A DNA stretch of 64,000 bases, from assembly GCF_000635915.2 (NCBI RefSeq), contig NZ_CP015614.1, forward strand, positions 1,967,501 through 2,031,500, read 5' to 3'. The notes under the pieces were generated by a model, which was not told the DNA's origin, made no database searches, and was given only the letters and a program-made list of their open reading frames with translations. Positions within the stretch are counted from its first letter, which is position 1. Each line of letters starts with the position of its first letter. This document shows positions 32,851 to 39,027 of the stretch, piece by piece. The DNA is from Brevundimonas naejangsanensis. Lineage in GTDB: Bacteria > Pseudomonadota > Alphaproteobacteria > Caulobacterales > Caulobacteraceae. Made by a program: the position numbers and the translations under genes.

Positions 32851-33255
32851 CTATTGCTGACCGGCGGATCCGCCCGCCAGATCCGACAGGATGGGACAGT
32901 CCGGACGTTCGTCCCCGGCGCAGCATTGGGCCAGGTAGCGCAGGGTGTCGGCCATCTCGCGCATTTCGCGGATGCGGGCGTCCAGATCCTCCAGATGTTT
33001 CTGCGCCATCGCCTTGACCTCGCGGCTGGGCCGGGCCTCGTCGCGCCACAGGGACAGCAGGCGGCTGATCTCCTCAATTGAAAAGCCCAGCCCCCGCGCC
33101 CGGCGGATGAAGCGCAGGTCGTTCAGGTCGCGCTCTGAAAAGTCGCGGTAATTCCCCTCGGTGCGGTCCGCAGGGCGGATCAGCCCTTGCGCCTCATAAT
33201 AGCGGATCATCTTGGCCGAGACGCCGGTCGCCTCAGCAGCCTTGCCGATGTTCAT
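32851..33255 (-). CDS. cueR: Copper-responsive MerR-family regulator CueR
   Basis: A 134-residue regulator. The N-terminal HTH reads [26 protein letters not shown], and the metal-binding loop has [13 protein letters not shown], with the spaced cysteines of Cu(I) sensors. It is expected to bind the promoter at 35777-35809 and activate copA by DNA distortion. It is downstream of copA and overlaps its stop by 4 bp (ATGA), so it is in the operon it controls. Confidence 0.93.
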
Positions 33256-35744
33256 CGCGCGGCTCCCTTCGCGCTGCCGATATGGGGTTTGAAGGCGCGC
33301 AGGCGCAGGGCGTTCAGCACCACGCTGACGCTGGACAGGGCCATGGCCCCCGCCGCCAGCATGGGCGACAGCATCAGGCCGAAGACCGGATACAGCACCC
33401 CCGCCGCCACCGGGATCAGCAGCACGTTGTAGCCGAAGGCCCAGGCCAGGTTCTGGCGGATGTTGTTCATCGTCGCCCGCGACAGGCCGATGGCGCTGAC
33501 CGCGCCGCGCAGGTCGCCGCCGGTCAGGACCACGTCCGCGCTCTCGATCGCCACGTCCGAGCCGCCCCCGACCGCAAGACCAACGTCCGCCGCCGCCAGA
33601 GCCGGGGCGTCGTTCACCCCGTCGCCGACGAAGGCGACCCTGCGCCCGCCCTTTTTAAGCGCCTCGATCACCGCCACCTTGCCGTCCGGCATGACCTCGG
33701 CGTGGACTTCGTCAATGCCCAGACGACGCGACACGGCGGCGGCGGTGCGGCTGTTGTCGCCGCTGATGACCGCCACCTTCAGCCCCAGCTCATGCAGGGC
33801 GGCGATCGCCTCGGCCGTCGTCGCCTTGACCGGGTCGGCCACGGCGATGATGGCGGCCAGTCGACCGTCCACGGCGGCGTAGAGCGGCGTCTTGCCCTCG
33901 TCGCCCAGACGGGCCGCCGCCTCGGCGAACAGGGCAACGTCGCAGCCCAACTCGGCCATGTAGCGGTCGGCGCCGACCGCGACGCGCGCCCCGTCAACCA
34001 GACCCGTCACGCCTTTGCCGGGGATGGAGGCGAAGTCCAGCGGCCGGGCCACCGTCGCGCCGCGCGCCTCGGCCGCAGCGACCAGGGCGCGGGCCACCGG
34101 GTGCTCAGACAGGCTTTCCAGCGCCGCCACCTGGGCCAGCACCGTCGCCTCGTCAAAGCCCTCGGCCGTGACCAGATCGGTCAATGTCGGCTTGCCCTCG
34201 GTCAGGGTGCCGGTCTTGTCGAAGGCGACGACGTCCACGCCCTGCAGGGCCTGAAGCGCCTCGCCCTTGCGGAACAGCACGCCCAGCTCGGCCGCTCGGC
34301 CCACGCCCACCATGATGGAGGTCGGCGTCGCCAGCCCCATGGCGCACGGACAGGCGATGATCAGCACGGCCACCGCGCTGACCAGCGCCATGCCCAGCGA
34401 CGGCGACGGCCCGAACAGGAACCACGCCAAGAAGGTCAGGGCGGCGATGGCCATGACGGCGGGCACGAACCAGCCCGTCACCTTGTCCACCAGCGCCTGG
34501 ATCGGCAGCTTGGCCCCTTGGGCGGCCTCGACCATCTTGACGATCTGGGCCAGCACGGTCTGGGCGCCGACCTGACGCGCCTCGAAACGGAAGGCGCCGG
34601 TGGTGTTCAGCGTGCCGCCCGTGACCTTGCCGCCGGCGGTCTTCTCGACTGGGATCGGCTCGCCCGTCAGCATGGATTCATCGACAAAGGAGGCCCCGTC
34701 CGTGACCACGCCGTCGACCGGCACTCGCTCACCGGGGCGCACCACGACCACGTCGCCGACCTTGACCGCATCGACGGCCACGTCCTGCTCGACGCCGTCG
34801 CGCACCACGCGCGCAGTCTTGGCCTGAAGCGACATCAGGCGGCGGATCGCCTGGCCCGTGCGGCCCTTGGCCCGCGCCTCGATCCAGCGCCCGACCAGGA
34901 TCAGGGTGACGATCACCGCCGCCGCTTCGAAATAGATGTTGGCCGTGCCCGCAGGCAGCCACTGCGGGGCAAACGTAGCCACCGTCGAGAAGGTCCACGC
35001 CGCCGTCGCGCCCAGCACGACGAGGGAGTTCATGTCCGGCGCCCAGCGCAGCAGGGCGGGCACGCCCTTGCGGTAGAAGATGATCCCCGGAACGAACAGC
35101 ACGAAGGTCGCCAGCACGAAGCTGATGACCTTCCAGTTGAAGGCGCCGATCGTCTCGCCGATCCAGTGGTGCATCCCCGGCACGAAGTGCGAGCCCATCT
35201 CCAGCACGAACAGCGGCAGGGTCGCCGCGCCCGCGATCAGCACCGCCCGGCCCAGCTTCCTGATCTCGGCGTCGCGAGCGGCCTGTTCGCGGTCGCTGGC
35301 GTCCGGCCCGGCGTTCTCGGGCGTGTCCAGCACATAGCCGGCCTGTTCCACGGCGGCGGCCAGATCCTGAAACGTCGTCGTCCCCGACAGGAAGCGCACG
35401 GTCGCCCGCTCGGTCGCCAGATTGACGCTGGCCGACAGCACCCCCGGCACGGCGGCCAGCGCCTTTTCCACGCGGCCGACACAGGACGCGCACGTCATGC
35501 CCCGCACAGGATAGGCGACCTCCTCCTGCATCGGCTCATAGCCTGCGCTCTTGATCGCGGCGGCCACGGCGGCGGCGGAACCGTCAGGCGACAGCGACAC
35601 CTGCGCCCGCTCGGCGGCCAGATTGACCTGCGCGTGCGTGACGCCCGGCACGGCGCGGATGGCCTTTTCGACCCGGCCCACGCAGCTGGCGCAGGTCATG
35701 CCCAGCACGGGTATATCCAGTGTTCTGAAGCCTTCGGCGGCCAT
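33252..35744 (-). CDS. copA: Copper-exporting P1B-type ATPase
   Basis: An 830-residue pump. Two heavy-metal-associated domains carry GMTCASC at residues 15-21 and 82-88. The transmembrane metal site is CPC at 465-467, the phosphorylated Asp509 is in DKTGT, and GDGVNDAP closes the hinge. It exports Cu(I) from the cytoplasm. The frame runs to 35777, but that codon lies inside the -10 element; the ATG at 35744 has GAGG 9 bp upstream and follows the predicted transcription start by about 25 bp. Confidence 0.97.
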
Positions 35745-35776
35745 GGCGTCGTCCTCGCAAACCTTTGACGACGACA

Positions 35777-35809
35777 CTGCTAAACCTTCCCATCAAGGGA
35801 AGGTCAACA
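35777..35809 (-). promoter_or_regulatory. CueR-type copper promoter and operator
   Basis: On the minus strand a -35 element TTGACC is separated by 19 bp from a -10-like TAGCAG. Inside is the dyad ACCTTCC-N7-GGAAGGT (35784-35804). A 19-bp spacer with this dyad is the hallmark of MerR/CueR-regulated copper promoters. Confidence 0.88.
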
Positions 35810-36140: not shown

Positions 36141-36217
36141 TGGCGACCCCGGGAGGACTCCAACCTCCGACCTCGGCTTTAGGAAAGCCTTGCTCTATGC
36201 AGCTGAGCTACGGGGCC
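36141..36217 (-). tRNA. tRNA-Arg (anticodon CCU)
   Basis: The 77-nt minus-strand sequence folds as a cloverleaf: acceptor GGCCCCG with CGGGGTC (one G-U), D arm GCTC...GAGC, anticodon loop TTCCTAA giving CCU, T stem GGAGG/CCTCC, discriminator G and encoded CCA. It reads AGG codons. Two details are odd: the D loop has G18-C19 in place of GG, and the T loop is TTGGAGT with G56 in place of C. Together these would still allow a C19-G56 pair. Position 27-43 is an A-G mismatch. Confidence 0.93.
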
Positions 36218-36376: not shown

Positions 36377-36501
36377 GGTCATGATTCGTTTCGCCCGTGT
36401 TCCAGGGCGCGGTAAGGTTCCGCTTACCATTCCTCGCTTCCGCTTTCTTCCTGTCGGTCCCGCTTGTGCAAGCGGGCGGGGTTCGCCACCTTGGGCGGGT
36501 C

Positions 36502-39027
36502 ATGAGCGATCGGTCCGCAGGCATGGCTCCATCGCGCGTCACGGCGATCCTGGGCCCCACCAACACTGGCAAGACCCACTTGGCGGTGGAGCGGATGCTG
36601 GGCCATGGCTCGGGCATGATCGGCCTGCCGCTGCGGCTGCTGGCGCGCGAGATCTATGAGCGGATCGTCAGGCGGCGCGGGGCGGCCTGCGTCGCCCTGA
36701 TCACTGGCGAGGAGAAGATCGTCCCGCCGCGCCCCGCCTTCTTCGTCTGTACGGTCGAGGCCATGCCGCTGGAGCGGTCGGTCGACTTCCTGGCGGTGGA
36801 CGAGATCCAGCTGGTCGCCGACCCCGAGCGGGGCCACGTCTTCACGCAAAGGCTGCTGCACGCGCGCGGCCGGTTCGAGACCATGTTCCTGGGCGCCGGG
36901 ACGATGGCGCCGCTGATGCGGTCGCTGGTTCCGGATGCGGAGATCGTGACCCGCGACCGTCTGTCGACGCTGTCTTACGCCGGGTCGAAGAAGCTGACCC
37001 GCCTGCCTCGCCGCAGCGCCGTCGTCGCCTTTTCGACCGAGCAGGTCTACGCCATCGCCGAGTTGCTGCGCCGTCAGAGGGGCGGGGCGGCCGTAGTCAT
37101 GGGCTCGCTGTCCCCCCGCACCCGCAACGCCCAAGTCGAGCTGTTCCAGTCTGGCGAGGTGGACTTCCTGGTCGCCACCGACGCCATCGGCATGGGGCTG
37201 AACATGGACGTGGACCATGTGGCCTTTGCGGGCCTGCGGAAGTTCGACGGGCGGCGCACGCGCTGGCTGCACGCCGCCGAGATCGGCCAGATCGCGGGGC
37301 GGGCCGGGCGGCACCTGCGCGACGGGACCTTCGGCGTCACGGGCGAGGCGGAAGAGCTGGACGAGGACCTGGTCGAACAGGTGGTCGAGCATCGCTTCGA
37401 TCCGGTCGAGGCGGCCGAGTGGCGCAGCGGACGGCTGGATTTCGACACCCTGCCCGACCTGCTGCGCTCGCTTACGGTGACGCCGGATCGTCATGGGTTG
37501 CGGCTGACGGCGCAGGCGCTGGACGAGACCCTGCTGCGGCGCTTTGCGGTCGATGAGGACGTCAGGAAGATCGCCCGCTCGCGCGGCGCTCTGATGCGTT
37601 TGTGGGAGGCGTGCCAGCTGCCGGACTTCCAGAAGACGACGCTGGACGAGCACGCCCGCCTGTCGAAGGAGATCTTCACCGCCCTGACCAGCCGACGCGG
37701 GCGGCTGACCGAGGACTGGGTGGCGCCGCGTTTCAACGACCTGGACCGCGACGACGGCCAGATCGACCAGCTTTCGGCGCGGCTGTCGGGGGTGCGGACG
37801 CTGAGCTACATCGCCAACCGGCCCGACTGGATGGCGGGCGCGCAGGAGTGGCGCGACAAGACCAAGGCGCTGGAGGAGCGGCTCAGCGACGTGCTGCACG
37901 AGCGGCTGACGGCGCGCTTCGTCGACCGGCGCACGGCGGCCCTGATGCGAGCGCTGCATGTGCGCTCGGACGTGCTGGCGGGCGTGGCCGACGACGGCGA
38001 GGTGACGGTCGAGGGCGAGGTGGTCGGCCATCTGGACGGGGTGCGCTTCACCGTCGACGCGGGCGGCTCGGCCCTGGCCGACCGGGCGCTGCGACAGGCC
38101 GCGACGCGCGCCGTCGGGCCCGAGGTGGCGCGGCGGCTGGGACGACTGGCGGCGGACGAGGACGCGGCCTTCGGCGTCACGCCCGACGGCGGAGTTCTGT
38201 GGACCGGGGCCCTGACCGGCCGCATCGTCAACGAAGACCCCTTCTCGCCACGCGTGCGGCTGCTGGGCGAGCTGGGGCCGGCGCCGGCGCGCGAGCGGGC
38301 CGAGCGGCGCATGGAGGCCTGGCTGGCGGGCGAGGCCGGACGCGCGCTGAAGCCGCTGAAACGGCTGCGCCATGCGATCGAGAGCGGCGCCCTGACCGGC
38401 CTGCCGCGCGGCCTGGCCTTCCGCCTGATCGAGGCGGGCGGCCTGATCCCCCGACGCGAGGTCGAGCGCGACCTGGCGGCGCTGAGCCAGCATGAGCGGC
38501 GCACGCTGAAGACCTTCGCCATCCGCGTCGGCGCCCATTCGGTCTGGCTGCCGGGCGTGACGAAGCCGCGCGGCGCGGCGCTGGCCCAGGCCTTTCTGCC
38601 CCGCGAGGCGGCCAACGGCCTGGCAGGCGAGGGCCTGCTGCCCCTGCCGGAGCCGGCGCCCTCGGCGCGCGCTCTGTCCGCCTTCGGCCGACGCGCGGTC
38701 GACCGCTGGACAGCGCCGGTCGAGGCGCTGGAAGCTCTCGCTGACGCGGCGCGGGCGGCGGGCAAGGAGCCGCTGTCAGCAGAAGCGCTGGATGCGCTCG
38801 GCTGGACGGCGGATCAGGCCAAGGCGATCCAGGCCGCCCTGCGTACGCCGCGCGCCGAGCGGGCGCCGCGCCCCGGCACGCCCACGCCGCCGCCCAAGGA
38901 TTCGCCCTTCGCCGCCCTCGCCCAGCTGACCCAGCTGGCGCGCCCGGCCCCCTCAGCCACGCCCAAGACGGCGCGCAGACCCCGGCGACGCCCCCGCAGA
39001 GCGGCGGCCGGCAAGACCGCCGAATGA
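36502..39027 (+). CDS. Suv3-like RNA/DNA helicase
   Basis: An 841-residue superfamily 2 helicase. Walker A is GPTNTGKTHLAVERM near residue 17, the DExx motif is DEIQ (FLAVDEIQLVADPERG), and GQIAGRAGRH is motif VI, all as in mitochondrial Suv3. Those proteins help degrade RNA with a 3' exonuclease partner. The basic tail (KTARRPRRRPRRAAAG) probably binds nucleic acid. The ATG at 36502 precedes the helicase core closely; the frame is open from 36397. It overlaps the S4 gene by 4 bp. Confidence 0.9.
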   Translation: MSDRSAGMAPSRVTAILGPTNTGKTHLAVERMLGHGSGMIGLPLRLLAREIYERIVRRRGAACVALITGEEKIVPPRPAFFVCTVEAMPLERSVDFLAVDEIQLVADPERGHVFTQRLLHARGRFETMFLGAGTMAPLMRSLVPDAEIVTRDRLSTLSYAGSKKLTRLPRRSAVVAFSTEQVYAIAELLRRQRGGAAVVMGSLSPRTRNAQVELFQSGEVDFLVATDAIGMGLNMDVDHVAFAGLRKFDGRRTRWLHAAEIGQIAGRAGRHLRDGTFGVTGEAEELDEDLVEQVVEHRFDPVEAAEWRSGRLDFDTLPDLLRSLTVTPDRHGLRLTAQALDETLLRRFAVDEDVRKIARSRGALMRLWEACQLPDFQKTTLDEHARLSKEIFTALTSRRGRLTEDWVAPRFNDLDRDDGQIDQLSARLSGVRTLSYIANRPDWMAGAQEWRDKTKALEERLSDVLHERLTARFVDRRTAALMRALHVRSDVLAGVADDGEVTVEGEVVGHLDGVRFTVDAGGSALADRALRQAATRAVGPEVARRLGRLAADEDAAFGVTPDGGVLWTGALTGRIVNEDPFSPRVRLLGELGPAPARERAERRMEAWLAGEAGRALKPLKRLRHAIESGALTGLPRGLAFRLIEAGGLIPRREVERDLAALSQHERRTLKTFAIRVGAHSVWLPGVTKPRGAALAQAFLPREAANGLAGEGLLPLPEPAPSARALSAFGRRAVDRWTAPVEALEALADAARAAGKEPLSAEALDALGWTADQAKAIQAALRTPRAERAPRPGTPTPPPKDSPFAALAQLTQLARPAPSATPKTARRPRRRPRRAAAGKTAE

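Follow-up and report, generated by a model that had tools for sequence, protein, structure and literature searches.

The ribosome, RNase P and many proteins read the base pair between positions 19 and 56, which is the tertiary pair exposed at the tRNA elbow (PMC4810234). G19 and C56 are described as a conserved pair (PMC4810234, PMC7912444), and where a review of non-canonical tRNAs deals with these two bases it makes no mention of a swapped pair (PMC7609411). A tRNA engineered with G19C and C56G reportedly charges like the wild type, whereas charging is lost when the pair is broken (cited in PMC3602588). Cleavage by AtPRORP1 is sensitive to single mutations of C56; AtPRORP1 is a different enzyme from the bacterial ribozyme, and its listed mutants do not include the double swap (PMC5039416). 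The main arginine identity base is A20 (PMC9976931), which is intact in the tRNA described here. The string C19-G56 does appear in PMC10944890, apparently for an ordinary tRNA. Our search of the open-access literature found no earlier description of a natural swap.

The window, a stretch of 64,000 nucleotides from Brevundimonas naejangsanensis, contains a tRNA gene in which this pair is reversed (Table 1). ARAGORN calls the gene as tRNA-Arg(CCT), and it matches the Rfam tRNA model RF00005 over model positions 1-71, its full length, with 52.5 bits against a gathering score of 29. The CCU anticodon, A20 and G73 together assign it to tRNA-Arg(CCU). Read directly, the D loop is A14-G15-C16-U17-G18-C19-A20-U20a-A21 and the T loop is U54-U55-G56-G57-A58-G59-U60. 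The elbow elements G18, U54, U55 and A58 are thus all present, and the outer pair G19-C56 is replaced by C19 and G56, with pairing potential kept and orientation swapped. An alternative fold that restores G19-C56 was ruled out, as no register of the D or T loop gives it. The C19/G56 pattern has a single match in the window and none in 100 shuffles. The reading of a tRNA-Arg with C19 and G56, proposed in an earlier note on this DNA, is confirmed.

Table 1. Positions, in window coordinates, of the tRNA-Arg(CCU) gene, its parts and its 5' neighbour
Feature	Position	Strand	Source
tRNA-Arg(CCU) gene, single copy, encoded CCA at 36141-36143	36141..36217	minus	ARAGORN and Rfam RF00005
3' half equivalent to the 45 bp attachment core shared by integrative elements of relatives; contains positions 42 and 56, not 19	36141..36185	minus	
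T loop UUGGAGU; U54, U55 and A58 intact	36157..36163	minus	direct reading
G56, partner of C19, where nearly all tRNAs have C	36161	minus	direct reading
C42, paired with G28; most Brevundimonas alleles with a canonical elbow have A42	36175	minus	
Anticodon CCU	36181..36183	minus	ARAGORN
A27, mismatched with G43 (36174); common to the swapped alleles and most canonical ones in the genus	36190	minus	
D loop AGCUGCAUA; G18 and A20 intact	36196..36204	minus	direct reading
C19, where nearly all tRNAs have G	36199	minus	direct reading
Suv3-like helicase gene, divergently oriented, next to the tRNA on its 5' side	36397..39027	plus	

The host genome is complete, with one contig of 2.97 Mb; 45 tRNA genes were found in it, and 42 distinct sequences were recovered. 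Among these 42 the swap is unique to tRNA-Arg(CCU), which is also the only one with a CCT anticodon; the remainder have G19 and C56, including the arginine tRNAs ACG, CCG and UCU. The helicase gene adjoins tRNA-Arg(CCU) in many species, both swapped and canonical, indicating that the tRNA locus is orthologous between the two allele classes. ARAGORN also reports a tRNA-Met at 38452-38529 on the minus strand, within the helicase gene and opposite to it; this is probably a false positive, because it is absent from the Rfam tRNA list of the genome. Beyond the 3' end of the tRNA gene, a MerR-type regulator-like gene (32851-33255) lies beside a heavy-metal P-type ATPase (33252-35777).

In order to follow the swap within the genus, a pattern with positions 19 and 56 both open was used. 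It matched 126 of 131 Brevundimonas genomes, and one further genome (G071), with a four-base variable loop, was added to give a total of 127. Counted from the listed rows, C19/G56 occurs in 92 and G19/C56 in 35 of these 127 genomes with a CCT tRNA; no mixed state was found among them. Since 19 and 56 always change together, the tRNA probably works normally. Position 42 moves with the elbow, with C in every swapped allele and A in the majority of the canonical alleles. Different anticodon stems occur in G034, G061, G113 and a few more Brevundimonas genomes, and the T stem varies among GGAGG/CCTCC, GCAGG/CCTGC, CCAGG/CCTGG and GGGGG/CCCTC. The changes in the acceptor stem are likewise paired among the alleles of the genus, and these paired T-stem and acceptor changes indicate that the gene is under selection and retained as a working tRNA. 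The A27-G43 combination, which had been singled out as a further oddity, is a real mismatch; comparison of the Brevundimonas alleles shows it to be an older inherited trait, independent of the swap, because it is found in the swapped alleles and in the majority of the canonical alleles, and purine-purine combinations at 27-43 are present in other genera of Caulobacteraceae.

These comparisons bear on whether the gene is decaying or has left translation, either as a pseudogene or as a tRNA for another arginine transfer reaction only. Such a fate would fit its Rfam score, which is below that of most tRNAs of the host genome, and the A27-G43 mismatch. It is nevertheless very improbable, given that the stems are compensated, A20 is intact, CCA is encoded, the swap is conserved in 92 genomes and no other host tRNA has a CCU anticodon; a pseudogene in particular was judged unlikely from the conservation and the compensated stems. 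We hold with high confidence, from comparative sequence analysis, that the gene encodes a functional tRNA-Arg(CCU) and that compensatory change exchanged its G19-C56 pair for a near-isosteric C19-G56. The C-G pair could fill the place of G-C and present the same flat elbow face. As any Watson-Crick pair can presumably stack at 19-56, the face offered to the L1 stalk, RNase P and other partners would be preserved. The effect on RNase P or modification enzymes that the earlier note raised finds no support in these comparisons, and the paired state suggests that any such effect may be small.

The distribution of the swap in other bacteria was analysed in 84,980 species genomes with a C19 and G56 pattern (D stem of GCTC/GAGC type, five-base variable loop), yielding at least 120 records. 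Among the matches listed, tRNA-Arg(CCU) makes up the majority of the true tRNAs and is found in Brevundimonas, in Acidobacteriaceae (Granulicella, Edaphobacter and Terriglobus), in Blastocatellia with Pyrinomonas, and in Marinicaulis. The remaining matches listed are tRNA-Arg(CCG) and scattered single tRNAs for Ala, Asn, Thr, Pro, Gly and Arg(UCU). Within the alphaproteobacteria, 385 genomes sampled from the whole class gave matches to the swap in Brevundimonas only. The description of the swap as rare holds per tRNA gene and gives way at the level of lineages, as the swap is fixed in most of Brevundimonas and recurrent elsewhere. With 19 and 56 left open, G-C, C-G and U-A are the pairs found among the rows listed for 396 Acidobacteriota and 398 Pseudomonadota genomes, and no mismatch appears in these rows. 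Together with the perfect linkage in 127 Brevundimonas genomes and the phage tRNAs described below, this covariation supports the supposition that the two changes compensate each other.

Some further cases came out of these scans. A U19-A56 tRNA-Arg(CCU), a third Watson-Crick state, is present in three Acidobacteriota (G578, G653 and G728) and one member of Pseudomonadota (G1205). Two metagenome-assembled genomes, one of Rhodanobacteraceae (L177) and one of Verrucomicrobia (L195), carry a tRNA-Arg(CCU) near-identical to that of Acidobacteriaceae, either by transfer or by contamination. The reduced genome of Mycoplasma sp. SG1 (L197) has a C19-G56 tRNA-Asn, and tRNAs with a CTA anticodon and C19-G56 occur in the cyanobacterium Symploca (L175) and in L222.

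All four Watson-Crick pairs occur at 19-56 in phage tRNAs. Scans of viral contigs put the number of distinct tRNAs at 58 for C-G and at no fewer than 92 for U-A and 109 for A-U, whereas a complete scan for G-G gave only three. A bystander set comprised 2,225 distinct tRNAs on the same viral contigs that matched none of the scanned patterns. Of its tRNAs, 88 lack C56, and among these the complement of position 56 directly follows the D-loop G in 76, while GG is kept in eight. Positions 19 and 56 covary strongly in phage tRNAs. The ten C19-C56 candidates were set aside, as all have GCG loops in which an alternative G19 reading is possible. The tRNAs with U19-A56 or A19-U56 lie at viral loci L536-L614 and L655-L733, arginine being the commonest identity among the matches listed.

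Arginine tRNAs account for 34 of 58 C-G, 62 of 92 U-A and 45 of 109 A-U phage tRNAs among the matches listed, versus 45 of 188 in the control scan. For the C-G set the excess has a Fisher p of 1e-6 with phage relatedness ignored, and the arginine excess is indicative only because this relatedness is uncorrected. This over-representation and the four phage pairs could reflect escape from an elbow-reading nuclease, toxin or defence factor, which would favour other Watson-Crick pairs both in phage tRNAs and in certain host tRNAs. Phage tRNAs reportedly evade tRNA-targeting defences by changes in the anticodon loop (PMC10264068). Such escape is improbable, considering that the other arginine tRNAs of the host retain G19-C56, that no elbow-reading effector was identified, and that the tRNA-targeting effectors described in the accessible literature act on the anticodon or variable loop. 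Arginine tRNAs may be favoured because a redundant tRNA is weakly constrained, because the gene serves as an attachment site, or because the change allows escape from such enemies.

In the tree of the adjoining helicase, swapped and canonical states interleave with eight changes. In a tree of rpoB, a locus distant in the genome, 30 genomes require six changes of elbow state, and a single-change topology appears in no bootstrap tree of this set. In one genome (G112) rpoB is present twice at full length, on separate contigs, and the copy used fell outside the genus; it was dropped from a test of 26 core genomes, in which the elbow needs five changes. Grouping the swapped genomes as a single clade was rejected on rpoB (p-AU 2e-6, five changes), and the helicase tree shows no such clade. 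Repeated changes on the 26-genome rpoB tree are also found for the T-stem type (seven) and position 17 (four), and 5' halves with C17 or U17 combine with several 3' halves among the Brevundimonas alleles. The mixed combinations of halves and the repeated changes suggest that parts of the gene have been exchanged or that mutation has recurred.

A possible source of such exchange was found in four Brevundimonas genomes (G012, G017, G032 and G088), which carry truncated 3' copies of tRNA-Arg(CCU). Each copy adjoins a tyrosine integrase with Arm-DNA-bind_3 and Phage_integrase domains, as at an attB site used by an integrative element; the genome of the window has no truncated copy of this tRNA. 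The copies begin at gene positions 23 to 33 and extend to the end of the gene, so that 42 and 56 fall inside them and 19 outside. In G017 and G088 the T stem is GGAGG in the truncated copy and GCAGG in the intact tRNA, which sit on different contigs; from this difference, the element appears to have replaced the 3' half of the host gene. Reconstruction of a tRNA from an attP half has been described for other phages (PMC10865867). The canonical allele likewise serves as an attachment site in G012. The suggestion that the swap may affect integrase targeting is accordingly upheld in part: the gene is a target in relatives, and with both alleles used there is no sign that the swap alters targeting. 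The 3' flanks of the tRNA gene are unrelated even among close species, and the 5' flanks are somewhat more alike within clades and do not track the allele; short shared flanks were for these reasons rejected as marks of a transferred tract. An apparent element with the other allele in G090 was also discarded, since the copy lies at a contig edge in an assembly with 4% contamination and has no adjoining integrase.

From these observations a two-step route may be proposed, which we regard as tentative. Elements with a 3'-half core would replace positions 42 and 56 of the host gene upon integration, and position 19, outside the core, would change later to restore pairing. The integrases beside truncated 3' copies, the T stems of G017 and G088 and the interleaved states on the trees support this route. 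No G19-G56 intermediate was found among the 127 Brevundimonas genomes, and for that reason the route is one that we infer. Several swapped alleles differ at position 17 in their 5' half, so another exchange or mutation would be needed as well. The separate contigs of the truncated and intact copies in G017 and G088 likewise count against the route. A more specific version, which we consider doubtful, is that the cores of the elements drift at position 56 and impose their T arm on the host gene, which then restores the pair through position 19. If true, integration hot spots in tRNA genes would give rise to new Watson-Crick pairs at the elbow, matching in kind those that phage arginine tRNAs also carry.

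The main alternative to the integrase route, which leaves the functional assignment untouched, is that compensatory drift took place in a tRNA for which there is little demand: a slightly deleterious change at position 19 or 56 was followed by its compensation, with no part played by mobile elements, and the patchy distribution arose by repeated mutation or ordinary recombination. We consider this plausible, though short of probable. Only 24 of 14,725 codons (0.16%) in the likely genes of the window are AGG, making tRNA-Arg(CCU) little needed; a tRNA-Arg(UCU) is present in the host and probably also reads AGG, and with both conditions the elbow change would be tolerated. Recurrence of the swap in the redundant arginine tRNAs CCU and CCG is in line with drift. 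Yet positions 42 and 56 never switch separately within the core of the genus, which drift alone does not predict; the 127 genomes contain no intermediates; and the swap is fixed in tRNA-Arg(CCU) and absent from the other rare-codon tRNAs of the same genome.

Whatever the route, a natural and repeatedly fixed swap, together with the four pairs of phage tRNAs, suggests that pairing and stacking are conserved at 19-56, and not base identity. Sister species with each state provide natural variants for testing which elbow-reading factors need G19-C56, and the connection with integrase attachment suggests a mechanism, open to test, by which mobile elements would alter the sequence of a host tRNA.

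Compared with known systems, the gene resembles the tRNA sites of P4-type tyrosine integrases in that its 3' half is the core copied beside integrases in four Brevundimonas genomes. It differs from them in that the intact T stem is unlike the truncated copy in two genomes, and that no integrative element is inserted at 36141..36185 in the window. With the canonical bacterial tRNA-Arg(CCU) it shares the cloverleaf, A20, the CCU anticodon, the encoded CCA and the G18-U55 and U54-A58 elements, and has C19-G56 where that tRNA has G19-C56. The engineered G19C/C56G tRNA cited in PMC3602588 carries the same double swap and was made in the laboratory, whereas the swap in Brevundimonas is natural and fixed in most of the genus. 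The selenocysteine, pyrrolysine, allo- and mitochondrial tRNAs reviewed in PMC7609411 also depart from the usual D-loop and T-loop sequence; several of them lose or rebuild the elbow contacts, whereas the tRNA-Arg(CCU) described here keeps the contact with its partners exchanged.
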